In this document: positions 30,387-47,278 of the stretch, one piece after another
How the letters are laid out: each line of letters begins with the position of its first letter
How positions within the stretch are numbered: position 1 is the first letter of the stretch
Source: Streptomyces drozdowiczii
GTDB taxonomy: Bacteria > Actinomycetota > Actinomycetes > Streptomycetales > Streptomycetaceae
Direction: 5' to 3'
DNA: 64,000 nucleotides
NCBI RefSeq assembly: GCF_026167665.1
Contig: NZ_CP098740.1
Location: 5,270,001-5,334,000, forward strand
Notes under the pieces: model-generated
Seen by the model: only the letters and a program-made list of their open reading frames with translations
What the model was told of the DNA's origin: nothing
The model's database searches: none
Translations under genes and position numbers: made by a program

Positions 30387-31811
30387 TCAGGGCGAGATCT
30401 CCTCCAGCGGCCGGTTCGCCGTCTCCTCCGCCAGGGTGCCGGCGACCACCGCGCCGAGCACCGCCACCGCGGCGAGCATCACGAAGACCGCGACGACGCT
30501 GTCGTTCGCCGCGTAGACGAGGCCGACCAGGATGGGGCCGAGGATCACGCCCAGGCGGTTGACCGCGCCGCCGACGCTGCACCCGAGCGCCCGCATCCGG
30601 GTCGGATACAGCTCCGGCGTGTACAGGTACAGGCAGATGTTGGAGCCGAAGAAGCCGACCGCCGACAGCGAGGTCCAGATCAGCACCTGGACCGGGGAGC
30701 CGGCGCCCAGCGCGGCCAGGGTGAGCAGCAGGGCCGCCGAGGCGCCGAGGCAGATCGCGAAGACCTTGCGGCGGCCCAGGACGTCCACCGTGAGCGCCAC
30801 GATCAGGCAGCCGAGCAGCCCGGCGACCGAGGTCACCGTGGAGTAGAGCAGGGCGTCGGAGAGGCCGAGGCCGTACTCGTCCTTGTAGATGCTCGGCAGC
30901 CAGGACGTCACGCCGTAGTTCACGAAGTAGCCGGTGAACCAGATCGCGCCGACGACCAGCGTGCGGCGCCGGTAGCGGCCGGTGAACAGCCCGCGCAGGC
31001 CGGTCGCCGCCCGCTCCGCGTCGGTGGTGGCCGTTGCCTTCTCCGGGGTGCTCGCGGCGCGCGGCGCGGGCAGCGGCTGCCCCGTCGCGGCCGCCACCTT
31101 CGCCTCGATCCCGGCCATCACCGCTTCCGCCTCCGCGAGCCGCCCCCGGTCCGCGAGCCAGCGCGGGGACTCCGGGACGCGGCGCTGCACCAGGAAGGCC
31201 AGCAGGCCGGGGACGGCGGCGACCACGAACATCGTGCGCCAGCCCGCCGCCGGGACGACCCAGGCGGCGACCAGCGCGCCGACGGTGAGGCCCGCCGGAA
31301 AGACCAGTTCGTACAGCAGGACGAAGCGGCCGCGCTTGAAGCTGCGCGTGATCTCGCTGATGAAGGCCGCCGCCACCGGCACCTCGCCGCCGATCGCCAG
31401 CCCCTGCGCGAACCGCAGCGCCAGGAACGGGGTGAGCGAGGTGCAGGCGGTGAGGGCCAGGCTCACCAGGCCCGAAACGGCGATGCAGTACGCGATGACC
31501 TTCACCCGGCCGTAGCGGTCGGCCAGCCGCCCCGACAGCAGGGCGCCGACGAGCATGCCGACCGAGCCGACGGTCAGGACGGCCGTGGCGTCGCCGGTGC
31601 TCAGCTGCCACTCGTCGCGCAGCTCCGGCAGCGCGTAGGCGATCAGCAGCTGGTCGAACGCCTCGAAGAAGGTGACCACGCCCACGATCAGGCGGACGGT
31701 GACGTGCCAGCGGGAGGGCGGCAGCCGCTCGAACCGGGCCGCTATGGCGGTGCGGGTGGTGCCGGAGGGCGAGGGGCCCGGCGCGGCGTCCTGTGAGATG
31801 TCGGTGCTCAT
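30387..31811 (-). CDS. MFS transporter, likely aromatic-acid or organic-acid permease
   Basis: A 474-residue, 12-helix major facilitator permease with the loop 2-3 motif GRLADRYGRVK and the metabolite:H+ symporter-like segment FAQGLAIGGEVPVAAAF. ATG 31811, preceded by GGAGGA, is preferred to the longer reading frame. It is transcribed away from the aldehyde dehydrogenase gene across a 344-base regulatory gap with paired operator-like motifs, so it is most likely the importer for the catabolic cluster at 32156-42428. The substrate is not deducible. Confidence 0.87.
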   Translation of the reverse strand: MSTDISQDAAPGPSPSGTTRTAIAARFERLPPSRWHVTVRLIVGVVTFFEAFDQLLIAYALPELRDEWQLSTGDATAVLTVGSVGMLVGALLSGRLADRYGRVKVIAYCIAVSGLVSLALTACTSLTPFLALRFAQGLAIGGEVPVAAAFISEITRSFKRGRFVLLYELVFPAGLTVGALVAAWVVPAAGWRTMFVVAAVPGLLAFLVQRRVPESPRWLADRGRLAEAEAVMAGIEAKVAAATGQPLPAPRAASTPEKATATTDAERAATGLRGLFTGRYRRRTLVVGAIWFTGYFVNYGVTSWLPSIYKDEYGLGLSDALLYSTVTSVAGLLGCLIVALTVDVLGRRKVFAICLGASAALLLTLAALGAGSPVQVLIWTSLSAVGFFGSNICLYLYTPELYPTRMRALGCSVGGAVNRLGVILGPILVGLVYAANDSVVAVFVMLAAVAVLGAVVAGTLAEETANRPLEEISP

Positions 31812-31956
31812 CCAGGGTTCCTCCTGCTCCGCGGGGGCCCGGAGCGGTTGGGGGAGCCAGGTGTACGTGTATGCAGAGGCTGCGGTGGGCCGAGCGTACG
31901 GGTGGGGGAGCGGTACGCGGTGCCCGTGAGGCGGTGACATCGCCCACGAACCTCTG

Positions 31957-31983
31957 TAAGCACCTAGCTTCTTAGGGCTTAAG
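31957..31983. promoter_or_regulatory. Putative MarR operator, MFS side
   Basis: Contains CTAGCTTCTTAGGGCTTAAG. It nearly matches the opposite-side site (TTAGCTTTTTAG) and carries the AGCCCT core on the minus strand. Confidence 0.5.
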
Positions 31984-31984
31984 T

Positions 31985-32013
31985 TCTATCGGTCCGGGGG
32001 TGGCGGCCGTCAA
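31985..32013 (-). promoter_or_regulatory. Predicted MFS promoter (TTGACG-17-GATAGA)
   Basis: On the minus strand TTGACG (32008-32013) and GATAGA (31985-31990) are separated by exactly 17 bases. An operator-like motif lies just downstream of the -10 box. Confidence 0.6.
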
Positions 32014-32062
32014 GGGTCGGGGAGCAAAAGACTTTTTGCCCGAGCTTTTTGTCCAGGGGGGC

Positions 32063-32100
32063 TTGCGGGCCATTACTTAAGTGCTTAGCTTTTTAGCCCT
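32063..32100 (+). promoter_or_regulatory. Predicted ALDH promoter with putative MarR operator
   Basis: TTGCGG (32063-32068), 17 bases, then TAGCTT (32086-32091) form a weak promoter. GCTTAGCTTTTTAGCCCTGA overlaps the -10 box, and TTAGCCCT at 32093-32100 also occurs before the marR gene. The remaining parts of the 31812-32155 gap show nothing else I can support. Confidence 0.5.
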
Positions 32101-32155
32101 GAGGTACCGGCTCCGGCCGGACCGGGAACCGATCACGACCGCAGGAGGCCAACCG

Positions 32156-33640
32156 ATGCTTGCCGACGAGGTGTTGGTCGCCGGACAGTGGCGCCAGGGC
32201 CGGGGCGCCCCCATCGAGACCGTCGACCCGGCCACCGGCCAGGTCATCGCCACCGTGCGTGCCGCGTCCCTCGAAGACGTCGAGGAGGCCGCCGCCGCGG
32301 CGACCCGGGCCGCCCGGGAGCCCGCCTGGCGCGAGCTGCCCGCCCACCTCCGTGCCCGGCTGCTGCACCGCGTCGCGGACCTCGTCGAGCAGGACGCCGA
32401 CCGGCTCTCCGCGCTCCAGACCGCGGACACCGGCAAGTGCCGCACCGAGACCCGGGCCCTCGTGCTCAGCGCCGCCGGCACCTTCCGCTACACCGCCGCC
32501 GCCCTGGAGACCGCCGAGGACGCGCTCACCCCGGCCCGCGGCCCGTACCTCACGATGAGCGTCCACGAACCCATCGGCGTCGTCGGCGCGATCACCCCCT
32601 GGAACTCGCCGATCGCCAGCGACGCCCAGAAGCTCGCCCCCGCCCTCGCCGCCGGAAACGCGGTCCTCCTCAAGCCCGCCGAGTGGACCCCGCTCGTCGC
32701 CCTCGCGCTCGGCCGCCTGGTCCACCAGGCGCTCACCGAGGCCGGACTGCCGACCGCCCTGCTCTCCGTCCTGCCGGGCCGGGGCAGCGTCATCGGCGAC
32801 GCGATCGTCCGTCACCCGGCCGTCGGCAAGGTCACCTTCACCGGCGGCACGGAGACCGGCCGCACCCTCGCCCACGCCGCCGCCGACAAGCTGATCCCGG
32901 TCTCGCTCGAACTCGGCGGCAAGTCCCCGACGATCGTGCTGGAGGACGCCGACCTCGAACAGGCCCTCGCCGGCGTCATGTACGGGATCTTCTCGTCCAG
33001 CGGGCAGAGCTGCATCGCCGGTTCCCGCCTCTTCGTGCACCGCTCCCGCTACGAGGAGTTCCTCGGCGAACTCGTCGCCCGTACGGAGAAACTGCGCGTC
33101 GGCCCCGGCACCGACCCGGACACCCAGGTCGCCCCGCTGGTCCACCACCGCCACCGCGACAGCGTCGCCGCCTACGTCGACCTGGCCCGCGCGGAGGGCG
33201 CCACCGTCCGCTGCGGGGGAGCGGCCCCCGAGGGCGAGCGCTACCGGGACGGCGCCTACTACCTGCCCACCGTCCTGGACGGCCTGCCGAACACCGCCAG
33301 GGTCTGCCAGGAGGAGATCTTCGGACCGGTCCTGGTCGCCCTGCCCTTCGAGGACGAGGACGACCTCGTCGCCCAGGCCAACGACAGCGTCTACGGCCTG
33401 GCCTGCGGCATCTGGACCCGCGACCACGCCCGTGCCTGGCGGCTCGCCCGCCGCATCGACGCGGGCACCGCCTGGATCAACACGTACAAGCAGTTCAGCA
33501 TCTCCACCCCGTTCGGCGGGCTGAAGGACAGCGGCATCGGCACCGAGAAGGGCCGCGACCTCATCCGCGGCTACCAACGGCAGAAGTCCCTCTACTGGGC
33601 CACCGACACCACCCCGCTGCCCTGGGCCGCCGCCCACTGA
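32156..33640 (+). CDS. Aldehyde dehydrogenase
   Basis: A 494-residue NAD(P)-dependent aldehyde dehydrogenase. Catalytic Cys286 lies in SSGQSCIAGSR and the general base Glu252 in LELGGKSP; cofactor-binding ITPWNSP and FTGGTETG are present. GCAGGAGG before ATG 32156 fixes the start. It is the first gene of the plus-strand catabolic cluster. In that setting it most likely oxidises a ring-cleavage semialdehyde (as 2-hydroxymuconic semialdehyde dehydrogenases do) or an aromatic aldehyde. Confidence 0.93.
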   Translation: MLADEVLVAGQWRQGRGAPIETVDPATGQVIATVRAASLEDVEEAAAAATRAAREPAWRELPAHLRARLLHRVADLVEQDADRLSALQTADTGKCRTETRALVLSAAGTFRYTAAALETAEDALTPARGPYLTMSVHEPIGVVGAITPWNSPIASDAQKLAPALAAGNAVLLKPAEWTPLVALALGRLVHQALTEAGLPTALLSVLPGRGSVIGDAIVRHPAVGKVTFTGGTETGRTLAHAAADKLIPVSLELGGKSPTIVLEDADLEQALAGVMYGIFSSSGQSCIAGSRLFVHRSRYEEFLGELVARTEKLRVGPGTDPDTQVAPLVHHRHRDSVAAYVDLARAEGATVRCGGAAPEGERYRDGAYYLPTVLDGLPNTARVCQEEIFGPVLVALPFEDEDDLVAQANDSVYGLACGIWTRDHARAWRLARRIDAGTAWINTYKQFSISTPFGGLKDSGIGTEKGRDLIRGYQRQKSLYWATDTTPLPWAAAH

Positions 33641-33678
33641 CACCGCACGCGCCCCACCCACCCGAGCGGGAGGACCCC

Positions 33679-34626
33679 ATGCCCCACGACCACCCCCACG
33701 ACCGGCCGATAGCCCGGCTCCGCGCCCTGCGCTCCGTCGAACTCCACACGCCCGCCCTCACCGAGTCCGCCGACTTCTACGCCGAGGTCTGGGGCCTGGA
33801 ACCCGTCGAGCGCGACACCGACGCCACCTGGCTGCGCGGCACCGGCGAGGAACACCACGTCCTGCACCTCACCCGCGCCGACCGCAACGGCCTCGGCCGC
33901 ATCAGCTTCGCCGTCGCCACCCCCGCCGAGATCGACGAGGCCGCCCGCCGCCTCCTCGCCCGCGGCATCGTCCCCGTCGCCGGACCCGGCCCCCTCGACC
34001 AGGTCGGCGGCGGCTACGGACTCCGCTTCACCGACCCCGAGGGCCGGCTGATCGAACTCAGCGCCCAGACCCACGCCGTCACCCCGCGCGGCCGGGACGG
34101 CGCCGTCCCCGTCGGCGTCACCCACACCGTCCTCAACACCACGGACATCGACGCCGCCGTCGCCTTCTACACCTCCGTCCTCGGACTGCGCGTCTCCGAC
34201 TGGTCCGAGCACCAGATGGCCTTCCTGCGCTGCAACGCCGACCACCACTGCATCGCCTTCAACCAGGCCGAGTGGGCGTCCCTCAACCACGTCGCGTACG
34301 AGATGCCGTCCGTCGACCACTTCATGCGCGGCCTCGGCCGGCTCCGCCACCACGGCATCACCCCCCAGTGGGGGCCCGGCCGGCACGGCCCCGGCAACAA
34401 CACCTTCTCCTACTTCACCGATCCGGCCGGACTCGTCTGCGAATACACCTCCGAGGTCGCCCAGATCGTGGAGGACGCCTGGATCGCCAAGGTCTGGCGC
34501 CGCACCCCCGACCTCTCCGACCTCTGGGGCACCGCCGGACCGCCGTCCCCCGCCATCCGCCGCCACATGGCCGGTATCCCCGACCCCGGCCCCCTCACCA
34601 CCACCCCGGAAGAGGTGACCGCGTGA
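33679..34626 (+). CDS. Type I extradiol (meta-cleavage) dioxygenase, VOC family
   Basis: A 315-residue, two-module vicinal-oxygen-chelate protein. The second module carries a complete iron triad: His149 (GVTHTVLN), His204 (LNHVAYEM) and Glu255 (VCEYTSE), with the extradiol signature GRHGPGNNTFSYFTDPAG between them. It should cleave a catechol-type ring next to the two hydroxyls. Position between the ALDH and hydrolase genes fits the classic meta pathway. GGGAGG precedes ATG 33679. The stop overlaps the next gene (GTGA). Confidence 0.9.
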   Translation: MPHDHPHDRPIARLRALRSVELHTPALTESADFYAEVWGLEPVERDTDATWLRGTGEEHHVLHLTRADRNGLGRISFAVATPAEIDEAARRLLARGIVPVAGPGPLDQVGGGYGLRFTDPEGRLIELSAQTHAVTPRGRDGAVPVGVTHTVLNTTDIDAAVAFYTSVLGLRVSDWSEHQMAFLRCNADHHCIAFNQAEWASLNHVAYEMPSVDHFMRGLGRLRHHGITPQWGPGRHGPGNNTFSYFTDPAGLVCEYTSEVAQIVEDAWIAKVWRRTPDLSDLWGTAGPPSPAIRRHMAGIPDPGPLTTTPEEVTA

Positions 34627-35462
34627 CCACCGTCCTCCACCCCCGCCCGGACACCGCCGCCCGCCCCGGACCCGCCGTCCGCCGCGTCGCCCTCGTCGGC
34701 TGGGGCGCCATCGGCCGCGTCGTCGGCACCGCCCTCGCCGAGGGCCGCGTCCCCGGCGCCGAACTCACCTGCGTCATCGACAACCGGCCCCTGGTGGACG
34801 CCCCCGCGCCCCAGCTCTCCTTCGAGGACGCCCTCGCCGTCTGCGACCTCGTGGTCGAAGCCGCCGGCCAGGCCGTCGTACGGGAATGGGCCGAGCGCGT
34901 CCTCACCAGCGGCGCCGACCTGCTCATCGCCTCCACCGGAGCCCTGGTCGACCCCAAACTCACCGCCCGGCTGCGCGCCGCAGGGCCCGGCCGCGTCTAC
35001 TTCACCGGGGGCGCCGTCGGCGGGCTCGACCTCCTCCAGGCCGTCCGCGGCCTCGGCCCCCTCACCTCCGTCACCCTCACCACCACCAAGCTGCCCGCCA
35101 CCCTCCACCAGCCCTGGATGGACGAGGAACTGACGGACCGGCTGCGCACCACCACCGCACCCGTCGAGGTCATGCGCGGCACCGCCCGGGACGTCCCGGT
35201 GAAGTTCCCCAGGTCGACCAACGTCGCCGCCTCGGTCGCCCTCGCCACCGGCGACCCGGACCTGGTGGAGGTCGTCGTCGTCGCGGACCCGGACGCCACC
35301 CTCACCCGGCACGTCATCGAGGCGGCGGGCCCGCACGGCAGCTACCGCTTCGAGGTCGCCCACCGCCCCGACGCCGCCAACCCCGCCACCAGCCAGGTCG
35401 TCCCGCACGCCGTGCTCCGCAGCCTCGGCGCCGTCGTCGGACGGGCGGGGCAGATCCTGTGA
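34623..35462 (+). CDS. Aspartate dehydrogenase-like (DUF108) oxidoreductase
   Basis: A 279-residue NAD-binding protein with GWGAIG (26-31) and the overall layout of L-aspartate dehydrogenase/NadX: Rossmann domain, then TTTKLPATLHQPW and KFPRSTNVAASVALATGD. In NAD synthesis such enzymes make iminoaspartate, but no nadA or nadC is here. In a catabolic cluster a different amino- or oxo-acid substrate is more likely. GTG 34623 and the stop at 35462 overlap both neighbours by four bases, so it is made together with the dioxygenase and the hydrolase. Confidence 0.8.
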   Translation: MTTVLHPRPDTAARPGPAVRRVALVGWGAIGRVVGTALAEGRVPGAELTCVIDNRPLVDAPAPQLSFEDALAVCDLVVEAAGQAVVREWAERVLTSGADLLIASTGALVDPKLTARLRAAGPGRVYFTGGAVGGLDLLQAVRGLGPLTSVTLTTTKLPATLHQPWMDEELTDRLRTTTAPVEVMRGTARDVPVKFPRSTNVAASVALATGDPDLVEVVVVADPDATLTRHVIEAAGPHGSYRFEVAHRPDAANPATSQVVPHAVLRSLGAVVGRAGQIL

Positions 35463-36243
35463 CCGCCGGAATCCACACCCGCGAAGCCGGCGACCCGGAC
35501 GCCCCGCTCCTGCTCTGCCTGCACGGCATCGGCTCCTCCTCCGCCGCCTTCGCCCCCCAGCTCGACGGGCTCGCCGACCAGGTACGGGTCGTCGCCTGGG
35601 ACGCCCCCGGCTACGCGGACTCCGCCGACCCGGACCACGCCCCCGGCCTCGACGGCTACGCGGACACCGCCGCCGCCCTCATCCGCGAACGCGGCGGCCC
35701 CGCCCACGTCCTCGGCGTCTCCTGGGGCGGCGTCATCGCCCTCCGCCTCGCCGCCCGCCACCCGGACCTCGTCGCCTCCCTGATCGTCGCCGACTCAAGC
35801 CGGGGCTCCGGCACCGACCCGGACAGGGCGAAGGCCATGCGCGGGCGCGCCGAACAGCTCGCCGCCGAAGGGCCCGAGGCGTTCGCCGCCGCCCGGGGGC
35901 CCCGGCTCGTCTCGGACGGCGCACCCCCCGAACTCGTCGCCCGCGTCGTCGCCACCATGGCCGCCTCCGTCCGCGGCCCCGGCTACGGCTACGCCGCCGA
36001 CGCCATGGCGGACGCCGACCTCACCGACGACCTGCCCGCCATCACCGCACCGGCCCTCGTGCTCTGCGGCGAACAGGACACGGTCACCGGCACCGCCGAG
36101 TCCCAGGCCATCGCCGGGGCCTGGAGAAATCCGTCTACGTCACCCTCTCCGGCGCCGGACACCTCGCCAACCAGGAACGCCCCGAGGCGTTCAACGCCTG
36201 GGTCCGCGCCCACCTCCACGTCGTCGCCCGCGTACCCGCGTAA
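35459..36243 (+). CDS. Alpha/beta hydrolase, meta-cleavage-product type (one-base break)
   Basis: A serine hydrolase with LLCLHGIGSSS (oxyanion region), nucleophile Ser88 in GVSWGG, Asp in LCGEQDTVTG and, after the break, His in GAGHLANQERP. Such hydrolases follow extradiol dioxygenases and cut C-C bonds of ring-fission products. The frame breaks at 36116-36119. One more G there restores a 261-residue protein ending HVVARVPA at TAA 36241-36243. As sequenced, the catalytic His would be lost. GTG 35459 overlaps the upstream stop. Confidence 0.85.
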
Positions 36244-36286
36244 CGACGAACCCCCCACCCACCCCGAACGAACCCAGGAGCATCCC

Positions 36287-36808
36287 GTGCCCATCGACAA
36301 GACCCCGTACGAGAACAACGGCGACCTCGCGAAGTTCACCGACTCGCTCATCGCCACCAAGGACTCCCGCGAACCCGACTGGGACACCCTCTCCTTCCAG
36401 GAGAAGGCCGGCGCCCAGTACCGCCGCGCCCAGATCCGGTACGTCGGCTCCGGCGCCACCGGCAACCACGAGAGCGACAACCGCATCCTGCCCTCGGGCG
36501 GCTTCACCCTCTCCAACATGCTGCTCCCGCCGGGCGCCGAGGGCCCCGAGCACACCCACCACGACGTGGAGGAGGCGTTCTTCGTCCTGGAGGGGCAGGT
36601 CAGGGTCGGCATCCACCGGGGCGCCGACGAGACCGAGTACCGCACGCTCGGCTACCGGGACATGATCGTCGTCCCCGCCGGGGTGGCCCGCTCCCTGAAG
36701 AACGAGGGCGACACCGACGCCCTGTTCTGCGTCATCATCGGCACCCGGAAGCCGCAGGTGCCGACCTACCCCGAGCACTCGCCGATGCACGGCGTCACCC
36801 GCGACTGA
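36287..36808 (+). CDS. Cupin-domain protein
   Basis: A 173-residue single cupin with the metal motif EHTHHDVEEAFFVLEG and the second motif MIVVPAGVARSLKNEG. It may be a dioxygenase, isomerase or ligand-binding protein of the pathway; sequence does not decide. AGGAG lies about 8 bases before GTG 36287. The stop overlaps the next ATG by one base (TGATG). Confidence 0.83.
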   Translation: MPIDKTPYENNGDLAKFTDSLIATKDSREPDWDTLSFQEKAGAQYRRAQIRYVGSGATGNHESDNRILPSGGFTLSNMLLPPGAEGPEHTHHDVEEAFFVLEGQVRVGIHRGADETEYRTLGYRDMIVVPAGVARSLKNEGDTDALFCVIIGTRKPQVPTYPEHSPMHGVTRD

Positions 36809-37566
36809 TGGCCGCCGACGACACCTCCCGCACGGTCGTCGTCACCGGCGCCGGCCGCGGCCTCGGACTGGCCGCGGCCCGCCGGATCGGCGGCGACGGA
36901 CACCGCGTCGTCATCGCCGAACTGGACGAGGCCACCGGCCGTCAGGCGGCCGGGAAGCTCCGCGCCGACGGCATCACCGCGGACTACCACCCGCTCGACG
37001 TCGCCGACCCGGACTCCGTCGCCGCCCTCGCCGACACCCTCGCCGGTGACGGCAGCCGGCTGTACGGGCTGGTCAACAACGCCGGGCTGGCCAACGCGGT
37101 GGGCGGCAAGCCGTTCCACGAGATCGACGTCGAGGCGTGGGACCGCATCATGACGGTCAACGCGCGCGGGCCCTGGCTCGTCGCCCGCGCCCTCCTCCCG
37201 CTCATGCGGGCCCACGGCGTCGGACGCATCGTCAACCTCGCCTCGGACGCCGCGCTCTACGGCTCACCCCGGCTCGCCCACTACATCGCGTCCAAGGGCG
37301 CCGTGATCTCCCTGACCCGGGCGATGGCCCGCGAGACGGGCGACCTCGGCATCACCGTCAACGCGGTGGCGCCCGGCCTCACGGAGGGGGAGTCCGCCGT
37401 GGACATCCCCGCCGAACGCCACGAGCTGTACCGGCTGAACCGGGCGATCTCCCGCCCCCAGCAACCGTCCGACCTGGTCGGCCTCATCGCCTTCCTCATC
37501 GGCGAGGAGTCCGGCTACATCACGGGCCAGACGTTCGCCGTGAACGGCGGCTTCACGATGCAGTGA
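36808..37566 (+). CDS. Short-chain dehydrogenase/reductase 1
   Basis: A 252-residue classical SDR with TGAGRGLG (13-20), NNAG, and the catalytic Tyr159-xxx-Lys163 (HYIASKG); it ends GQTFAVNGGF. In the cluster it may rearomatise a cis-dihydrodiol made by the Rieske oxygenase. It starts one base inside the cupin stop. Two copies of the dispersed repeat separate it from the next gene. Confidence 0.9.
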   Translation: MAADDTSRTVVVTGAGRGLGLAAARRIGGDGHRVVIAELDEATGRQAAGKLRADGITADYHPLDVADPDSVAALADTLAGDGSRLYGLVNNAGLANAVGGKPFHEIDVEAWDRIMTVNARGPWLVARALLPLMRAHGVGRIVNLASDAALYGSPRLAHYIASKGAVISLTRAMARETGDLGITVNAVAPGLTEGESAVDIPAERHELYRLNRAISRPQQPSDLVGLIAFLIGEESGYITGQTFAVNGGFTMQ

Positions 37567-37574
37567 CGAACGAA

Positions 37575-37630
37575 AGCCCGTCCGGCGATTGAGGACAAGG
37601 CAGTTCAAGCCCGTCCGGCGATTGAGGACA
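37575..37630. repeat. Dispersed intergenic repeat, copy 3 (two direct arms)
   Basis: Two identical 23-base units in the same orientation (37575-37597 and 37608-37630; core AGCCCGTCCGGCGATTGAGG), so unlike copy 1 they cannot form the long hairpin with each other. They lie inside an otherwise tight operon. Confidence 0.85.
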
Positions 37631-37672
37631 CCCCACCACCGCCCGCACCCACCCACCCGCTAGGAGCCGCAC

Positions 37673-38467
37673 ATGGACCTCCAGCTGAAAGGCCACCGCC
37701 TACTCGTCACCGGCGGCAGCTCCGGCGTCGGCCTCGCCACCGTCCGCGCGCTCCTCGCGGAGGGCGCCCGCGTCGCCACCTGCGGCCGCCGCCCCGACGC
37801 CCTCGCCGCCGCCCTCGACGGCCTCGCCGGACCCGACACCCTCTACCACGCCCCCTGCGACGTCACCGACGAGGCCGCCGTACGCGCCTTCACCGACGCC
37901 GCCGCCGACCACTTCGGCGGACTCGACGGCCTCGTCAACAACGCCGGCGCCTCCCGGATGAAACCCTTCGCCGAGACCACCGCCGCCGACTGGCGCGAGG
38001 AGCTGGAGCTCAAGTTCTTCGGCGTCCTCAACCCGCTGCACGCCGCCCTGCCCCACCTCCGCGCCTCCGGCGCCGCCCGCGCCGCCTCCGTCGTCAACAT
38101 CAACGCGGTCCTCGCCAAGCAGCCCGAGACCCGGCTGATGACCACCAGCGCCGCCCGCGCCGGCATCCTCAACCTCTCCACCTCGCTGTCCAAGGAACTG
38201 GCCCCCGACGGCATCCGCGTCAACTCCGTCTGCCTCGGCCTCATCGACACCGGGCAGTGGGAACGCCGGTACGCCGCCTCCGGCTCCCCGCTGGACTACC
38301 CCGCCTGGCAGGCGGAACTCGCCGCCGTCCGGGGCATCGCCCTCGGCCGCCTCGGCAACGCCGACGAAGTCGCGTACGCCGTCACCGCCCTCCTCTCGCC
38401 CCGCGCCTCGTACATCACCGGCACCACCGTCGACGTCTGCGGCGGCGTCAACCGCGCGGTCGCGTAA
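37673..38467 (+). CDS. Short-chain dehydrogenase/reductase 2 with degenerate catalytic triad
   Basis: A 264-residue SDR fold with an intact cofactor motif TGGSSGVG (13-20), NNAG and a typical C-terminus (ASYITGTTVDVCGG). At the active site the expected Y-S-A-A-K is T158-S-A-A-R162, and the upstream catalytic serine position reads NINAV. Tyr, Lys and probably Ser are thus all replaced. It may be a non-canonical reductase, a binding or structural partner, or it may use another acid. TAGGAG precedes ATG 37673. Confidence 0.85.
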   Translation: MDLQLKGHRLLVTGGSSGVGLATVRALLAEGARVATCGRRPDALAAALDGLAGPDTLYHAPCDVTDEAAVRAFTDAAADHFGGLDGLVNNAGASRMKPFAETTAADWREELELKFFGVLNPLHAALPHLRASGAARAASVVNINAVLAKQPETRLMTTSAARAGILNLSTSLSKELAPDGIRVNSVCLGLIDTGQWERRYAASGSPLDYPAWQAELAAVRGIALGRLGNADEVAYAVTALLSPRASYITGTTVDVCGGVNRAVA

Positions 38468-38499
38468 CCCGTCCCCCAACCCCCTCAGGAGCACCCGAC

Positions 38500-40170
38500 A
38501 TGACCCGACCCAACGGCGGCGACCTGCTCGTCGAGACGCTACGCGGACTGGGCGTCGACACGGTGTTCGGCATCGTCAGCGTGCACAACCTGCCGCTCGT
38601 CGAAGCCGTCGACCGCGACCTGCGCTTCGTCCCCGTCCGCCACGAGGCCGCCGCGGTCAACGCCGCCGACGGCTACGCCCGCGCCACCGGCCGGCTCGGC
38701 TGCGCCCTCACCAGCACCGGTACGGGAGCGGGCAACGCGGCCGGCTCCCTCATCGAGTCCCTCAGCTCCGGCACCCCCGTCCTGCACGTCACCGGCCAGA
38801 TCGACAGCGCCTACCTCGGCTCCGGGCGCGGCTTCATCCACGAGACCAAGGACCAGCTCGGCATGCTCCGCGCGGTCTCCGCGCACGCCGTCACCGTCAC
38901 CGACGCCGAGAGCGCCGGCGACCTCCTGCGCGAGGCCGCCGCCCGCGCCCTGACCGCCCCGCACGGCCCGGTCAGCGTCGAGTGGCCCATCGACCTCCAG
39001 TTCGCCCCCCAGCGGCTCACCGGCACCCCCGTCCCCGCGCCCGCCACCCCGGCCCTGCCCGACCCGGCGCTCCTGGACGAGGCGGCCGCCCTGCTGTCCG
39101 CCGCCCGCCGCCCCCTCCTCTGGGCCGGCGGCGGCGCCAACACCGCCCGCCCCGAGGTCGCCGCACTCCTCGACGCCCTGAACGCCGGGCTCGTCACCTC
39201 CAACTCCGGACGCGGCGCCGTGCCCGAGTCCGACGAGCGGGTCCTCGGCAACTACGCCACCGCCCCGGCCGGCCGCGCCCTGCTCGCCGAGGCCGACGTC
39301 CTGCTCACCATCGGCACCCACTTCCGCTCCAACGAAACCGCCGACTACAGCCTCGGACTCCCCGCCACACACATCCAGATCGACCTGGACCCGGCCGCCC
39401 CCGGCCGCGTCCACCCGGCGACCGTCGCCCTCCACGGCGACGCCTCCGCCGTACTCGCCGCCCTCCTCGGCCGTGTCACCAGCGGGAGTACGGAGCCGAG
39501 CTGGCCCGGCCGCGTACGCGAGGCCCGTACCGCCGCCCGCGCCGCGCAGCGCCACGCCATCGGCCCGCAGGCCGCGATCAACGACGCGATACGCGACGCC
39601 TGCCCGCCCGGGTCCGTCATCGCCCGGGACGTCACCATCCCGTCCTCCACCTGGGGAAACCGGCTCCTGGAGATCACCGACCCGGCCACCAACGTCTTCC
39701 CGCGCGGCGGCGGCATCGGCCAGGGACTCGCCATGGGCATCGGCGCCGCACTCGGCCGCCCCGACACCCCCACCGTCGTCATCGCCGGCGACGGCGGCCT
39801 CGCCGTCCACCTCGGCGAACTCCTCACCCTCGCCCAGGAGAAGCCCGACCTCACCCTCCTCGTCTTCAACGACGGCGGCTACGGCGTCCTGCGCAACATG
39901 CAGGACAACCACTTCCCCCGCCGCTCCGGCGTCGACCTCACCACCCCCGACTTCACCCTGCTCGCCGCCGCCACCGGCCTCCCGTACGCCCGGATCGCCG
40001 CCGAGGCCGACGCCGGACCCGTCATCAAGGAAGCCGTCGCGACCCCGGGCCCCACCCTCGTGGAGATCGACCTCACCGCGCTCGGCCCGATGAACACCCC
40101 CTTCACCCCGCCCGTCAAACTCCCCGCCGCCGCCACCGGCACCCCCGCAGAAGGAGGCGACCCGTCATGA
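38500..40170 (+). CDS. Thiamine diphosphate-dependent lyase/decarboxylase (acetolactate synthase-like)
   Basis: A 556-residue, three-domain ThDP enzyme. The activating Glu49 lies in VPVRHEAAAVNAADG, and the ThDP/Mg motif begins GDGG at 430-433 and ends with Asn457 in FNDGGYG. The central domain resembles acetolactate synthase/benzoylformate decarboxylase. It could decarboxylate or ligate a 2-oxo acid from ring fission. TCAGGAG precedes ATG 38500. An ATGA overlap joins it to the reductase gene. Confidence 0.88.
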   Translation: MTRPNGGDLLVETLRGLGVDTVFGIVSVHNLPLVEAVDRDLRFVPVRHEAAAVNAADGYARATGRLGCALTSTGTGAGNAAGSLIESLSSGTPVLHVTGQIDSAYLGSGRGFIHETKDQLGMLRAVSAHAVTVTDAESAGDLLREAAARALTAPHGPVSVEWPIDLQFAPQRLTGTPVPAPATPALPDPALLDEAAALLSAARRPLLWAGGGANTARPEVAALLDALNAGLVTSNSGRGAVPESDERVLGNYATAPAGRALLAEADVLLTIGTHFRSNETADYSLGLPATHIQIDLDPAAPGRVHPATVALHGDASAVLAALLGRVTSGSTEPSWPGRVREARTAARAAQRHAIGPQAAINDAIRDACPPGSVIARDVTIPSSTWGNRLLEITDPATNVFPRGGGIGQGLAMGIGAALGRPDTPTVVIAGDGGLAVHLGELLTLAQEKPDLTLLVFNDGGYGVLRNMQDNHFPRRSGVDLTTPDFTLLAAATGLPYARIAAEADAGPVIKEAVATPGPTLVEIDLTALGPMNTPFTPPVKLPAAATGTPAEGGDPS

Positions 40171-41123
40171 CACCCGCCGAGGAGCCCCGGCTCGACCTGC
40201 TCGTCCACCGCATGACGTGGGAGGCCGACGGAGTCCTGAGCATCGAACTCACCCACCCCGAGGGCAAGCCCCTCCCCGCCTGGCGCCCCGGCGCCCACAT
40301 CGACGTCCACACCGGCGGCCACGTCCGCCAGTACTCCCTGTGCTCCGACCCCGCCGACACCACCCGCTGGCGCATCGGCGTCCTGCGCGAACCCGCCTCC
40401 CGGGGCGGCTCCGCCCACATCCACAGCGAACTCCGCCCCGGCCGGACCGTCCACGTCCAGGGCCCCCGCAACCACTTCGCGCTCGACCCCGACGCCCCCG
40501 GCTACCTCTTCGTCGCCGGCGGCATCGGCATCACCCCGCTCCTGGCCATGGCCCGCGAGGCCGCCCGCACCGGCACCCCCTGGCGGCTCGTCCACGGCGG
40601 CCGCACCCGCGCCTCCATGGCCTTCACCGCCGAACTCACCGCCCTCGCCGCACAGCCCGGCGGCAGCGTCGAGTTCATCCCCCAGGACGAACAGGGCCAC
40701 CCCGACCTCGACACCCTCCTCACCGGCCTCGCACCCGGCACCCAGGTCTACTGCTGCGGCCCCGAACCCCTCCTCGCCGCCGTCGAGGAACGCCGCCCCG
40801 ACGCCCGTACCGAACGCTTCGCCGCACCCGCCGCCGCACCCCGCGACGGCGAGGACACCGGCTTCGACCTCGTCTGCTCCCGCACCGGCCGCACCGTCGA
40901 GGTCGCCCCCGGCACCTCCGCGCTCGACGCCCTGGAGAACGCCGGCATCCCCGTCGCCTCCTCCTGCCGCGACGGGATCTGCGGCACCTGCGAGACCAAG
41001 GTCCTCGAAGGCACCCCCGACCACCGCGACTTCCTCCTCAGCGAGGACGAACGCGCGGCCGGCGCCTCGATGATGCTCTGCGTCTCCCGGTCCCGCACCC
41101 CCCGCCTCGTACTCGACCTCTGA
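40167..41123 (+). CDS. VanB/PDR-type oxygenase reductase (FMN + 2Fe-2S)
   Basis: A 318-residue electron-transfer protein with FMN-binding RQYSLCSDP (54-62), NAD-binding FVAGGIGITPLLAMA and YCCGPEPLL, and a C-terminal plant-type ferredoxin with Cys267/272/275 (CRDGICGTC) and a late MLCVS cysteine. This single-component reductase class (phthalate dioxygenase reductase, VanB) feeds electrons directly to a Rieske oxygenase, here the one at 41382. Confidence 0.93.
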   Translation: MTPAEEPRLDLLVHRMTWEADGVLSIELTHPEGKPLPAWRPGAHIDVHTGGHVRQYSLCSDPADTTRWRIGVLREPASRGGSAHIHSELRPGRTVHVQGPRNHFALDPDAPGYLFVAGGIGITPLLAMAREAARTGTPWRLVHGGRTRASMAFTAELTALAAQPGGSVEFIPQDEQGHPDLDTLLTGLAPGTQVYCCGPEPLLAAVEERRPDARTERFAAPAAAPRDGEDTGFDLVCSRTGRTVEVAPGTSALDALENAGIPVASSCRDGICGTCETKVLEGTPDHRDFLLSEDERAAGASMMLCVSRSRTPRLVLDL

Positions 41124-41143
41124 CCCGCCCGAAGGGAGCCGAC

Positions 41144-41374
41144 ATGACCGGCCCGACCAGCCCGCAGTACCTCGACCCGCACCAGGCCCGCACCGCCGAG
41201 CCCACCCCGTACGAGAAGAAGCTCGCCGCCGTGATCGAGGAGGTCTTCGGCGGCGGGGCCCACGACCTGCCCGGACTCGTCGCCGGACTCAACGCCCGCG
41301 ACCTGCCCGCCCCCGACGGCAGCCCCTGGACCGAGGACACCTTCCGCGCCGAGATGCGCCGACTGGGAGCGTGA
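41144..41374 (+). CDS. Small Rieske-associated protein (recombinase-like HTH domain)
   Basis: A 76-residue protein with PYEKKLAAVIEEVFGGG, HDLPGLVAGLNA and SPWTEDTFRAEMRRLG, the pattern of the small 'recombinase-like helix-turn-helix' proteins that I recall next to Rieske oxygenase genes in proteobacteria. It resembles the DNA-reading end of serine recombinases but has no catalytic domain. Its role is unknown; an oxygenase accessory or regulatory subunit is possible. GAAGGGAG precedes ATG 41144, and it ends 7 bases before the oxygenase gene. Confidence 0.75.
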   Translation: MTGPTSPQYLDPHQARTAEPTPYEKKLAAVIEEVFGGGAHDLPGLVAGLNARDLPAPDGSPWTEDTFRAEMRRLGA

Positions 41375-41381
41375 GACAGCC

Positions 41382-42428
41382 ATGACCACCGCCACCACCC
41401 CGACCCGGCCCTCCGAGGTCGCCCGCCCCGGCGACCGCACCGCCGACCGCCTCTTCGCCACCGGCATCCGCAACCAGTGGTACGCCGTCTGCCCCTCGGA
41501 CTTCGTGCCCGCCGGCGGCATGAAACGGCTCACCCTCCTCGGCGAGGAATGGCTCCTCTTCCGCCGCGCCGACGGCACCCTCCACATGCTGGAGGACCGC
41601 TGCCCCCACCGCGGCGCCCGCCTCTCCCTCGGCAAACACCTCGGCGACCGCATCGCCTGCTGGTACCACGGCGTCCAGGTCGACGGCACCGGCACCGTCG
41701 CCGCCGTCCCCGGCCTCCCCGGCTGCAACCTGGAGGGCAAGCAACTCGTCGCCGCCCCCCACCTCATCGAGACCGGCGGCGCGGTCCTCGCCTACTTCGG
41801 CGACCACGCCCACGCCGAACCCGTCCCGCTCACCCTGCCCGAACCCCTCACCGACCCCGGCACCTCGGCGTTCCTCTGCTACGCCGAGTGGAACGTCAAC
41901 TGGCGCTACGCCGTCGAGAACCTGCTCGACCCCATGCACGGCTCGTTCCTCCACCGCGACTCGCACAGCATGGCCGAGGGCCAGACCACCGCCCGCTTCC
42001 GCATCCGCGAGACCGAACGCGGCTTCTTCTTCGAGAAGACCGACCAGAGCGGCGTCAACTTCGACTGGGTCGAACTCTGCCGCACCGGCGTCGACTGGGT
42101 CGACCTCACCATCCCCTACCCGCCGACCGCCGGCCCCGGCGGACCCTTCGGCATCGTCGGCATGGCCACCCCCATCGACGAGGACCGCTGCGCCGTCTTC
42201 TTCTGGCGCTACCGCAAGGTCACCGGCTGGGAGCGCGACACCTGGCGCTTCCTGTACAAGACGCTCCTGGAGGACCGCCACTGGGAGGTCCTCGAACAGG
42301 ACCGCGTCATGCTGGAGGACCTGCGCGCCGACGCCGACCAGGCGGAGAACCTCTACCAGCACGACCTGGGCGTGGTCCGCGTCCGCCGCATGTACCGCAC
42401 GGAGGCGGAGTCGCAGGCGACGGCCTGA
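41382..42428 (+). CDS. Rieske non-haem iron oxygenase, catalytic subunit
   Basis: A 348-residue oxygenase of the phthalate/vanillate type. The Rieske cluster ligands are Cys74-x-His76 (CPHRG) and Cys93-xx-His96 (CWYHG). The mononuclear iron site has His186 and His191 in DPMHGSFLH, with the bridging Asp in NLLDP. It would hydroxylate or O/N-demethylate an aromatic substrate using electrons from the adjacent reductase. No small beta subunit is present, consistent with a homotrimeric alpha-only enzyme. It is the last gene of the plus-strand cluster. Confidence 0.93.
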   Translation: MTTATTPTRPSEVARPGDRTADRLFATGIRNQWYAVCPSDFVPAGGMKRLTLLGEEWLLFRRADGTLHMLEDRCPHRGARLSLGKHLGDRIACWYHGVQVDGTGTVAAVPGLPGCNLEGKQLVAAPHLIETGGAVLAYFGDHAHAEPVPLTLPEPLTDPGTSAFLCYAEWNVNWRYAVENLLDPMHGSFLHRDSHSMAEGQTTARFRIRETERGFFFEKTDQSGVNFDWVELCRTGVDWVDLTIPYPPTAGPGGPFGIVGMATPIDEDRCAVFFWRYRKVTGWERDTWRFLYKTLLEDRHWEVLEQDRVMLEDLRADADQAENLYQHDLGVVRVRRMYRTEAESQATA

Positions 42429-42433
42429 CCGAC

Positions 42434-42478
42434 GTCCTCAATCGCCGGCCACAACAAGCCCGTCCGGCGATTGAGGAC
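42434..42478. repeat. Dispersed intergenic repeat, copy 4 (inverted pair)
   Basis: GTCCTCAATCGCCGG (42434-42448) faces the complementary unit at 42457-42478 across a short loop, making a compact hairpin between the convergent Rieske oxygenase and marR genes, a likely bidirectional terminator. Confidence 0.82.
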
Positions 42479-42515
42479 ACCCCAGCGCCGGGATCCCGGC
42501 GCCCCCGCGGAGCGC

Positions 42516-43028
42516 CTACTCACCGCCCTCCGCCGACAGCACAGACCGCTCCAGCTTCCCCAGCAACCGCGCAAGCTCCACGCACTCCGCCTCCGACAGC
42601 CCCGCCAGCATCCGCCGCTCGTTCTCCAGATGCTCCGAGAACAGCGCGTCGATCAGCGACAACCCCTCGTCCGTCAGCCGCGAGTGCACCACCCGCCGGT
42701 CCTGCGGATCCCGCTCCCGCCGGATCAGCCCGTCCTTCTCCAGCCGGTCTATCCGCAGCGTCACGCCCGCCGAGCTGATCAGCCCGGAATCCGCCAGCTC
42801 GCCCGCCGTGCGCCGGAACGGCGCCCCCGCCCTGCGCAACGCCGTCAGCACGTCGAAGCCGGCCATCGAAAGCCCCTTGCGCTCCACCGGCCGCGAGATC
42901 GCCGTGCTGTACCGCAGGAACGCCCGGTGCAGCCGGCCGAAGACCTCCAGCGGAGCCGTATCCAGCTCCGGCCGCTCACGCCGCCAGTCCGCCACGATCG
43001 ACGCCACCGCGTCCGCCTGCTCCGCCAT
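42516..43028 (-). CDS. MarR-family transcriptional regulator
   Basis: A 170-residue winged-helix regulator (FDVLTALRRAGAPFRRTAGE, LISSAGVTLRIDRLEKDGLI, then the wing RDPQDRRVVHSRLTDEG). MarR proteins of this kind usually repress and are released by an aromatic ligand. GGAGGTG upstream selects ATG 43028 over GTG 43055. It is convergent with the catabolic cluster; a motif in its own promoter also occurs at the ALDH/MFS divergent promoter, so it is the likely controller of the cluster and of itself. Confidence 0.9.
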   Translation of the reverse strand: MAEQADAVASIVADWRRERPELDTAPLEVFGRLHRAFLRYSTAISRPVERKGLSMAGFDVLTALRRAGAPFRRTAGELADSGLISSAGVTLRIDRLEKDGLIRRERDPQDRRVVHSRLTDEGLSLIDALFSEHLENERRMLAGLSEAECVELARLLGKLERSVLSAEGGE

Positions 43029-43063
43029 CCCGGGCACACCTCCGTGCGGGTACACAATGGGGT

Positions 43064-43081
43064 AAGAATCTTAGCCCTCAA
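43064..43081. promoter_or_regulatory. Putative autoregulatory MarR operator
   Basis: AAGAATCTTAGCCCTCAA overlaps a TAAGAT -10-like box on the minus strand and shares TTAGCCCT with 32093-32100. Confidence 0.5.
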
Positions 43082-45705: not shown

Positions 45706-45875
45706 GCCCATACCACCGCAGCCCCTGGCAACACGCCCCCACCCGCGCCCCGCCACCCTTTCGAGTTCAGATCACCCGGTCCCCGGCCGCGCCACCCGAA
45801 ACCCGGACAAGCTGGCACGCACACCCATGCCCATGCCCGCCCCCGTCCCCGCGCGCCCGAAGGACCACCCGCCCC

Positions 45876-47278
45876 ATGCCCGTACCGCCCCTCGCCGGGT
45901 CCACCACCGGACCCGACGCCCTGCGCCCCCTCCTCGACACCGTCCTCACCGCCCTCGCCGAAGGCGCCCGACGCCGCGACGGCCCCCTCCCGCAGGCGGA
46001 CCCGACACCGTCACCCCGCGCACCCGCACCGCCCTCACCCCCCTCATCCCGGACCGGGGCACCGGCGCCCACCACGCCCTCGCCACCCTCGTCCAAGCCC
46101 TCACCGAAGGCGCCGCCGACCCCGCCGACCCCCTCTGCGCCGCCCACCTCCACACCCCGCCCCTCGCCCTCGCGGCCGCCGCCGACCTCGCCGCCTCCGC
46201 CCTCAACCCCTCCATGGACTCCTGGGACCAGGCCCCCGCCGCCTCCACCCTCGAAGCCGACACCACCGCCGCGCTCGCCGCCGAGGTCTACCCCCACCAC
46301 CCCGCACCCGACGCCCTCGTCACCACCGGCGGCACCGAGGCCAACCAACTCGGCCTCCTCCTCGCCCGCGAACGCCACGGCCCCGTCCAGACCATCACCG
46401 GCGCCAACGCCCACCACAGCTTCACCCGCGCCGCCTGGCTCCTCGGCCTCCCCGAACCCCTCACCGTGCCCGCCCCGAACGGCACCATCGACGTCCCCGC
46501 ACTCCACGAGACCCTCGCCCGCCACCACGCGCGGGGCCCCCTCCTCGTCACCGCCACCGCCGGCACCACCGACACCGGCCAGATCGACCCCCTCACCGAG
46601 ATCGCCGACCTCTGCGCCCGCCACGGCGCCGAACTCCACATCGACGCCGCCTACGGCGGGCCCCTCCTCTTCAGCCCCGCCCACCGCCACCGACTCGACG
46701 GACTCGACCGCGCCGACAGCGTCACCCTCGACCTCCACAAACTCGGCTGGCAGCCCGCCTCCGCCGGCATCCTCGCCGTCCCCGACCGCCACCACCTCCA
46801 CGCCCTCCACCACCAAGCCCCCTACCTCAACGCCGACGACGACACCGAAGCCGGCCTCCCCGACCTCCTCGGCCGCTCCCTGCGCACCACCCGCCGCCCC
46901 GACGTACTCAAGATCGCCGTCACCCTCCGGGCCCTCGGCCGCACCGGACTCGCCGACCTGGTCGACCGCACCTGCGCCGCCGCGCACACCCTCGCCGACC
47001 TCGTCACCGCCACCCCCGGCCTCGAACTCCACGACCGCCCCACCATCAGCACCGTCCTCTTCCGCCCCACCGGCGCCGACGACCACACCGTCGCCACCGT
47101 CCGCCGCACCCTCCTCACCCGCGGCCACGCCGTACTCGGCCGCACCCACGCCCACGGCCGCCTCTGGCTCAAGGCCACCCTCCTCAACCCCCACACCACC
47201 CCCGACGACCTCCACCGCCTCCTCACCCTCGTCACCCGGCTCACCGCCGAACTCAAGGAAGGCAGCACCCTCCGATGA
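45876..47278 (+). CDS. PLP-dependent decarboxylase, diaminobutyrate/lysine type (one-base break)
   Basis: A group II decarboxylase of about 467 residues. LNPSMDSWDQAPAAS, TTGGTEANQLGLLLARE, HIDAAYGGPLL (PLP-binding Asp) and the PLP lysine Lys289 in LDLHKLGWQPAS are all in the long frame. GAAGGA precedes ATG 45876. The first 37 or so codons are in a different frame, joined by one more C in 45983-45991. Enzymes of this type make cadaverine, diaminopropane or aromatic amines. The ATGA overlap with an amine N-hydroxylase points to hydroxamate siderophore precursors. Confidence 0.85.

Follow-up and report, generated by a model that had tools for sequence, protein, structure and literature searches.

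Meta-cleavage pathways of the Xyl, Hpa and Bph types share a Rieske or other oxygenase, a dehydrogenase, an extradiol dioxygenase of the VOC family, an alpha/beta hydrolase and an aldehyde dehydrogenase (ALDH). For the bicyclic compound kynurenate (4-hydroxyquinoline-2-carboxylate), a Pseudomonas (quinoline) pathway has reportedly been known as a set of activities from the work of Hayaishi and co-workers from 1961 onward. It is said to run through the 7,8-dihydrodiol and 7,8-dihydroxykynurenate to the 5-(3-carboxy-3-oxopropenyl)-, 5-(3-carboxy-3-oxopropyl)-, 5-(2-formylethyl)- and 5-(2-carboxyethyl)- forms of 4,6-dihydroxypicolinate. We know of no genes that have been assigned to this bacterial pathway. 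Here, we analyzed a stretch of 64,000 nucleotides (the window) from the single-contig, 7.39-Mb genome of Streptomyces drozdowiczii (NZ_CP098740.1, positions 5,270,001 to 5,334,000), in which a gene cluster spans 30387-43055. We propose, with a probability of roughly 0.5, that the cluster may be a catabolic unit complete in itself, with kynurenate or a very close quinoline-2-carboxylate as its substrate.

The cluster comprises an importer of the major facilitator superfamily (MFS), eleven genes divergent from it on one strand, among them two short-chain dehydrogenases/reductases (SDR1 and SDR2) and a thiamin diphosphate (ThDP) enzyme, and a regulator. The order of the genes in Pfam and NCBIfam scans was as follows:

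30387..31811, minus strand: MFS transporter, likely the substrate importer (Pfam MFS_1, 2.5e-46; start by ribosome-binding site)
32156..33640, plus strand: ALDH (Pfam Aldedh, 541 bits, scanned from 32081)
33679..34626, plus strand: two-domain VOC extradiol dioxygenase (Pfam/NCBIfam scans; H149/H204/E255)
34623..35462, plus strand: aspartate-dehydrogenase-like protein (AspDH; Pfam/NCBIfam scans)
35459..36243, plus strand: alpha/beta hydrolase, with a one-base frameshift near 36115-36121 in the assembly (Pfam scan, comparison with relatives)
36287..36808, plus strand: cupin, role uncertain (Pfam Cupin_2, 3.4e-11 on the fused frame)
36808..37566, plus strand: SDR1 (Pfam scan)
37673..38467, plus strand: SDR2 (NF005468, 334.8 bits, cut-off 266)
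38500..40170, plus strand: ThDP enzyme (NF005470, 698 bits, cut-off 495)
40167..41123, plus strand: ferredoxin-type reductase, VanB/PDR-like (NCBIfam matches below cut-off to BenC, GbcB and others)
41144..41374, plus strand: small PF20552 protein of 76 amino acids (Pfam, 108 bits)
41382..42428, plus strand: VanA-type Rieske oxygenase (Pfam Rieske, 6.7e-21; VanA_C, 2.9e-11)
42516..43055, minus strand: MarR regulator, presumed repressor (Pfam MarR, 4.1e-12)

The MFS frame stays open to 31940, the likelier start being 31811, which has a good ribosome-binding site before it; its nearest NCBIfam model, TIGR00895 (aromatic acid/H+ symporter), scored 232 bits, under the cut-off of 418. The likelier start of ALDH is the ATG at 32156, preceded by AGGAGG. 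Because several neighboring genes from ALDH to the Rieske gene overlap by 1 or 4 bases (34623/34626, 35459/35462, 36808 and 40167/40170) and the largest intergenic gap is 106 bases, the run reads as one 11-gene unit. A first-pass annotation of this DNA had described a ring-opening locus with an importer, a Rieske oxygenase and reductase, two SDRs, an extradiol dioxygenase, a hydrolase, ALDH, a ThDP enzyme, an AspDH-like protein, a cupin and a MarR regulator. The scans recovered each of these components, and the ring-opening unit is supported and appears to be co-regulated. The 76-amino-acid PF20552 gene had been overlooked, and the MarR frame starts 27 bases beyond the right edge then given (43028). 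No hydratase or aldolase family of the 2-oxopent-4-enoate type was found among the cluster proteins in the scans. The earlier view that the AspDH and ThDP enzymes lie outside a standard catechol meta pathway is supported.

Judging by its genes, the unit is one of aerobic Rieske/extradiol catabolism and is not peculiar to this genome. The VOC protein has the two VOC domains and the intact His-His-Glu site of a type I extradiol dioxygenase, and H149, H204 and E255 were invariant in all nine aligned proteins, which confirmed the site noted earlier. The expected Rieske and mononuclear-iron ligand residues were likewise invariant in the seven aligned oxygenases; in both enzymes these are the positions that we take, by motif, to be the ligands. 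The NCBIfam scan of the oxygenase listed two models and no others: 4beta-methylsterol monooxygenase, at 55.7 bits against a cut-off of 600, and AndAc, at 24.5 bits. No vanillate or phthalate NCBIfam model matched it at an E value of 0.001, so that vanillate or phthalate, the familiar substrates that would have spoken against a new pathway, are not indicated, although the broad Pfam domain VanA_C did match (44.3 bits). When relatives of the VOC protein were sought, 8,000 candidates were scored, of which 3,557 had an E value of 1e-20 or less, and the best 120 of these 3,557 were examined by name. Among these 120, the sole specific name was that of P0102, a '2,3-dihydroxybiphenyl 1,2-dioxygenase' of Rhodococcus rhodochrous that is 74% identical to the window protein over 95% of its length; the others had general or shortened names or none. 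P0102 may belong to the BphC set of a 2004 study of strain K37. Its name derives from biphenyl work, and by that name it would take a bicyclic catechol, which we counted in favor of kynurenate. The model for biphenyl-2,3-diol dioxygenase BphC itself (TIGR03213) gave 80.1 bits against a cut-off of 366.

We then compared the cluster across genomes. A contig scan with an alignment of seven oxygenases gave at least 585 relatives. We kept the 80 best, whose titles are all actinobacterial, and excluded one locus of less than 5 kb (L079) from the count. A core of ALDH, VOC dioxygenase, hydrolase, cupin, SDR2, ThDP enzyme and Rieske oxygenase within the fetched stretch was complete in 64 of the remaining 79 loci. 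The other 15 missed at least one core gene in the fetched stretch; several of them were short or at a contig end, and not each was checked. The 64 full clusters also held SDR1 (64), the reductase (63), PF20552 (63), AspDH (56), MarR (44) and MFS (37), an arrangement that is beyond chance. The closest of the 80 loci were those of Streptomyces sp. SID9727 (99% oxygenase identity) and RKAG290 (96%), and the cluster occurred in 36-37 of 394 genomes from the taxonomic family of the window.

The distribution of AspDH bears on the nature of the substrate. The window protein has NAD-binding and Asp_DH_C domains and the residue that we take to be the catalytic His, which was invariant in eight of eight aligned proteins. 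Eight of the 64 full clusters lack AspDH, and a profile search found no full-length match in any of these eight genomes (two partial matches, about 20 bits), while three of three control genomes gave one. Genes of the RidA family (PF01042) were present in 19 of the 64 full loci, 13 of them among the 56 with AspDH, and were linked to the cluster in all eight genomes without it: inside the locus in six, just past the locus end in L069, and in L067 as part of a MarR-RidA pair that shares the contig and lies about 11 kb beyond the oxygenase, on its downstream side. Since flanks were extended for L067 and L069 only, the comparison of 8/8 (6/8 before extension) with 13/56 is somewhat biased, and we claim no probability for counts that come from related species. 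Two RidA representatives scored 82.5 and 62 bits with PF01042 (cut-off 27.3) and, with NCBIfam TIGR00004, 75.8 against a cut-off of 106. Because every AspDH-lacking genome has a linked RidA gene, it seems that an imine is made in the pathway by an enzyme other than AspDH and that either AspDH or RidA removes it, which argues against the release of free aspartate. The imine is likely derived from the ring. The exchange supports the nitrogen-containing substrate that had been suggested from the window alone; the accompanying idea of an unusual side chain fares less well, the nitrogen being likelier in the ring next to a carboxylate.

Because of the gene logic and of an imine next to a carboxylate, the ring would contain N-C(COOH)=CH-C(=O), which in kynurenate is the pyridone half. 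Gene families for all of the activities needed, from dioxygenation, dihydrodiol oxidation and extradiol cleavage to reduction, 2-oxoacid decarboxylation and aldehyde oxidation, are present. The ThDP enzyme, whose relatives among PDB sequences include acetolactate synthases, benzaldehyde lyase and benzoylformate decarboxylase, and ALDH stand where a hydratase and an aldolase would be, and this pair matches what the reported kynurenate intermediates would need.

In the route that we infer, from the substrate and every reaction to the SDR assigned to each step and the binding of MarR, the MFS protein would import kynurenate, and the Rieske oxygenase, with the reductase supplying electrons and the PF20552 protein as partner, would dihydroxylate the benzo ring at C7-C8 (kynurenate 7,8-dioxygenase). 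SDR1 would rearomatize the product as a cis-dihydrodiol dehydrogenase, and the VOC enzyme would cleave C8-C8a (7,8-dihydroxykynurenate 8,8a-dioxygenase) to yield a picolinate that bears -CH=CH-CO-COOH as its side chain. SDR2 would then reduce the side-chain double bond as an enone reductase, the ThDP enzyme would decarboxylate the 2-oxoacid, and ALDH would oxidize the 2-formylethyl aldehyde to 5-(2-carboxyethyl)-4,6-dihydroxypicolinate. Two hydrolytic steps, at the lactam and at the C4-C5 bond, would give glutarate and 2-iminosuccinate; they could be carried out by the alpha/beta hydrolase (on the pyridone ring or a C-C bond) and perhaps the cupin, for which isomerization is an alternative role. 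AspDH would reduce 2-iminosuccinate to aspartate, and elsewhere RidA would hydrolyze the imine to oxaloacetate. The unit would be controlled by MarR and CTTAAG palindromes. What the sequences show directly is which genes are present, their order and conservation, the exchanges among them and where the palindromes lie.

By computation, 5-(2-carboxyethyl)-4,6-dihydroxypicolinate plus two H2O balances exactly to glutarate plus iminosuccinate. The picolinate is named among tryptophan/kynurenine metabolites in passages of two metabolomics papers (PMC10543884 and PMC12007202), and, according to a passage of a review, certain pseudomonads turn kynurenate into glutamate, alanine and organic acids (PMC11354673, citing Horibata et al. 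1961). Glutamate and alanine as products would be compatible with glutarate and aspartate as precursors, without proving them.

Very similar annotated sets were found in Acinetobacter baumannii, Klebsiella pneumoniae, Novosphingobium, Paracoccus, Caballeronia NK8 and SBC1, Nitratireductor and Pseudosulfitobacter, and in Caballeronia M1242 as far as the record end; tblastn placed the cluster in Burkholderia arboris and two Cupriavidus genomes as well. A ThDP match in Variovorax turned out not to belong to this cluster. In several proteobacterial versions, a ferredoxin and a flavin adenine dinucleotide-dependent oxidoreductase replace the VanB-like reductase and IclR replaces MarR, and in Paracoccus, Nitratireductor and Pseudosulfitobacter a longer cupin lies elsewhere and genes for an ATP-binding cassette transporter stand between PF20552 and the oxygenase. 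In Novosphingobium resinovorum HR1a (L011) the cluster lies in two halves around an MFS gene and a SIR2-family gene, without SDR1. Plasmid pNK84 of Caballeronia sp. NK8 (L013) has a second, partial cluster with Rieske, ThDP and VOC genes, a three-subunit molybdenum hydroxylase and an SRPBCC protein, perhaps for a related N-heteroaromatic pathway.

A 29.6-kb stretch of Vibrio nigripulchritudo retains the cupin, hydrolase, VOC, SDR2, ThDP, AspDH and ALDH genes; Rieske, SDR1 and PF20552 genes were not found in that stretch, to which the search was limited. An adjoining frame of 315 amino acids, shorter than the models, encodes a flavin aromatic monooxygenase. Of the 64 full actinobacterial clusters, 9 have a related flavin monooxygenase gene inside them or close by (the match in L067 being weak, with about 30% identity), and such a gene also lies close to the clusters of Caballeronia M1242, Nitratireductor and Cupriavidus. 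Because Vibrio keeps the lower genes and has the flavin monooxygenase in place of Rieske, SDR1 and PF20552, the comparison suggests a place for each SDR, SDR1 at the Rieske step and SDR2 in the lower pathway. It also suggests that the catechol formed from the Rieske substrate can be reached from a phenolic analogue of that substrate as well. Two upper modules, Rieske or flavin monooxygenase, would thus appear to feed one lower module. Xanthurenate (8-hydroxykynurenate) could be the phenolic analogue, entering at the shared catechol through a flavin monooxygenase as in Vibrio.

The small protein encoded just before the oxygenase belongs to PF20552, described as a 'recombinase-like' helix-turn-helix family. 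In a sample of 396 genomes across the phylum, PF20552 was above cut-off in three, the same three that hold the oxygenase, and two further genomes gave matches below cut-off. In the Streptomycetaceae-level sample of 394 genomes, it was above cut-off in 36 (and below it in three more), and the oxygenase was found in 37. Both genes were shared by 36 of these genomes, each pair within 50 bases, and the single genome with the oxygenase only holds a fragment of it (residues 168-346). From this co-occurrence in 36 family and three phylum genomes, together with the joint absence in the Vibrio stretch, PF20552 is a dedicated companion of this Rieske oxygenase, and may act as a subunit, an assembly factor or a regulator. 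In L078, L080-L088 and L091-L094, PF20552 and the Rieske gene stay adjacent while the reductase, cupin and AspDH genes shift position, and in several of these loci two RidA copies flank the unit. The boldest form of the proposal, namely that the cluster supplies the missing genes for kynurenate/xanthurenate mineralization, that the route ends in glutarate and 2-iminosuccinate, that AspDH and RidA are interchangeable and that PF20552 is an obligatory Rieske partner not recombinase-like in function, is tentative, and we lean against its holding in full.

Several observations weigh against the assignment to kynurenate. The VOC proteins of the cluster set divide into two types that are about 25% identical to each other and have their metal ligands in common; those of Burkholderia, Caballeronia, Acinetobacter, Klebsiella and Novosphingobium are only about 25% identical to the window protein, and the cupin of Paracoccus, Nitratireductor and Pseudosulfitobacter is a different, longer one, so that substrates may differ between lineages. 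The Novosphingobium cluster, with a Rieske gene but no SDR1, poorly fits the pairing of SDR1 with the Rieske step. The window AspDH has Thr in place of the Asn found two residues before the catalytic His in solved enzymes, and it falls below the NCBIfam aspartate dehydrogenase cut-offs (the best two being 135.5 versus 206.6 and 132.1 versus 177 bits). Most of the AspDH-lacking genomes are drafts in which the gene could sit in a gap, although L073 is titled complete. The genome's own tryptophan dioxygenase and kynureninase, used as tblastn queries, gave no match in the loci fetched earlier or in L096-L100 and L103-L105. An acyl-coenzyme A (CoA) dehydrogenase by the Pseudosulfitobacter cluster, considered as a glutaryl-CoA dehydrogenase for the glutarate, scored 291.6 bits to another acyl-CoA dehydrogenase, 199.6 to one glutaryl-CoA dehydrogenase and 128 to that of Burkholderia. 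The CoA-transferase, considered as a succinate-glutarate type, reached 275 against a model cut-off of 750, and this line of evidence was dropped. The L013 molybdenum hydroxylase, considered as a quinaldate oxidase, is not specifically of the quinoline type: the models that it matches best are those of 4-hydroxybenzoyl-CoA reductase and xanthine dehydrogenase, and among PDB sequences quinoline 2-oxidoreductase ranks fourth. We put the assignment to kynurenate at about even odds.

All of the patterns observed would suit any quinoline-2-carboxylate, and another fused N-heteroaromatic acid degraded along the same lines (xanthurenate, quinaldate, a 4-quinolone or a related alkaloid acid) would find further support in the flavin monooxygenase, whose gene in several loci accompanies the Rieske gene or stands in for it, and in the molybdenum hydroxylase genes next to the paralogous Caballeronia cluster. 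We nevertheless regard such a substrate as unlikely, since kynurenate is, to our knowledge, the sole member of this group with a reported route through exactly these intermediates and a Rieske-only cluster, as in the window, is ill-suited to an already hydroxylated substrate. The C-C hydrolase-like protein might instead free aspartate from a ring-opened arylalanine-type or other aromatic compound with an amino side chain, and AspDH, which can run oxidatively, might then oxidize it. This is distinctly improbable: no imine would arise in the eight genomes that have linked RidA and in which no full-length AspDH was found, no hydratase or aldolase is there for the pentadienoate half, and the ThDP enzyme and ALDH would be unexplained.

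A nitrogen-free bicyclic or biaryl substrate would agree with the name of P0102, and AspDH and RidA would have to be incidental. They hardly look so, with AspDH in 56 of the 64 full clusters and linked RidA in the other eight, and the biphenyl-diol dioxygenase model scored far under its cut-off; the odds are heavily against this explanation. An anabolic or detoxifying role, for example in natural product tailoring, is brought to mind by the streptomycete host and by the presence of the cluster in so few genomes of the family. It is scarcely credible for a cluster that has its own importer, no biosynthetic core enzyme in the Pfam scans of its genes, and close counterparts in Acinetobacter, Klebsiella, Paracoccus and Vibrio. 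Kynurenate or a very close quinoline-2-carboxylate is therefore the substrate that we prefer.

The hydrolase of the window differs from its relatives in L015-L018, which have intact copies, by one base near 36115-36121 (aligned at base level for L015, L016 and L018). The difference puts the catalytic His, which corresponds to H235 in L015 and was invariant in nine of nine proteins, out of frame, and the shifted frame (35459-36808) continues into the cupin. Because the site adjoins a run of G, an assembly error is plausible; from the sequence, error and real lesion are indistinguishable. If the frameshift is real, the pathway of this strain may be impaired. The cupin is distantly related to oxalate decarboxylases.

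The likely MFS and ALDH starts (31811 and 32156), judged by their ribosome-binding sites, enclose a divergent promoter region of 344 bases with two related sites:

31973..31988, no strand assigned: operator-like palindrome TAGGGCTTAAGTTCTA in the divergent promoter region
32074..32085, no strand assigned: second CTTAAG site TACTTAAGTGCT, related to the site at 31973

The pattern AGNNCTTAAGNNCT matches one place only in the genome (31973-31988), but its reversed control is equally rare, with one match per strand, and the single occurrence alone says little. The pattern TNCTTAAGNNCT likewise matches one genome place only (32074), and its control matches nine forward and six reverse places. CTTAAG is generally uncommon in genomes of this kind. 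The 942 kb of 50 Streptomyces loci contain 20 CTTAAG sites, every one of them within 400 bp upstream of ALDH, and this placement across loci is the stronger point in favor of the palindrome. Among the 40 loci that include 250 or more bases upstream, 17 have the motif and 23 lack it, so that it is not universal. MarR may bind the CTTAAG palindromes. An AT-rich palindrome, TAAGAATCTTA, lies at 43063-43073, just upstream of the MarR start, and is perhaps an autoregulatory site; it was spotted by eye and was unlisted by the repeat search.

Beyond the cluster, an M1 aminopeptidase at 43156-45656 is encoded in two frames with a 4-base overlap, the first with a weak N-terminal match just under cut-off and the second with the catalytic and ERAP1_C domains, and may be another frameshift or a split gene. 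At 45827-48677, a pyridoxal phosphate-dependent decarboxylase gene precedes a frame that matches the histamine N-monooxygenase model at 378 bits, short of its cut-off of 700. The pair resembles the start of a hydroxamate siderophore pathway, but the next long gene, on the opposite strand, encodes a cyclic-nucleotide phosphodiesterase.

Kynurenate is a neuroactive and immune-active product of tryptophan that is excreted by animals and made also by plants and microbes. If the proposal is correct, a widespread gene set of soil actinobacteria, Acinetobacter, Klebsiella and Burkholderia would be recognizable as a kynurenate sink, and at least three enzyme activities, reportedly without sequences, would gain genes, for which genomes of gut, clinical and soil origin could be screened. 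The exchange of AspDH and RidA would be a natural experiment on the handling of a reactive imine, and the link to the Rieske oxygenase puts PF20552, a Pfam family with a poor name, into a definite setting. Among the papers listed in the literature searches, none was found to assign genes to kynurenate breakdown or a function to this cluster, a weak negative given incomplete coverage with few subscription journals. The suggestion of the first-pass annotation that the pathway may be undescribed thus holds at the gene level within that literature and does not hold for the inferred chemistry, which matches a biochemical pathway known since about 1961 according to the passage cited above (PMC11354673). 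The published kynurenine gene set of A. baumannii is, in the part of the article consulted, KynU/KynB and not this cluster (PMC9162365).

Among described gene clusters, the lumichrome/riboflavin cluster of Nocardioides simplex likewise serves actinobacterial N-heteroaromatic catabolism with a thiamin enzyme, a Rieske oxygenase and an extradiol dioxygenase, as far as the consulted part of its description goes (PMC12746152). It was rejected as the answer, since its gene set differs: its thiamin enzyme acts on the carboxylate of a heterocycle, as a decarboxylase, its Rieske oxygenase is made up of alpha and beta subunits, and the count in the article text is 0 for 'aspartate dehydrogenase' and 0 for 'aldehyde dehydrogenase'. 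VanAB and carbazole-dioxygenase-type systems likewise have a VanA_C domain and a VanB-like reductase, and carbazole dioxygenase CarAa provided the best-scoring PDB sequences for the oxygenase once an entry with no name other than 'Rieske domain protein' is set aside. Unlike these systems, the oxygenase of the cluster has no match to a vanillate model, is paired with PF20552 and lies inside a full ring-opening unit. Unlike the Xyl, Hpa and Bph pathways, the cluster is without hydratase, aldolase and tautomerase and adds SDR2, the ThDP enzyme, AspDH or RidA, the cupin and PF20552. The closest likeness is to the reported kynurenate pathway, for which the cluster would offer one candidate gene per activity from the dioxygenase through the aldehyde dehydrogenase, whereas the ending in glutarate and iminosuccinate, with AspDH or RidA, is newly proposed here.

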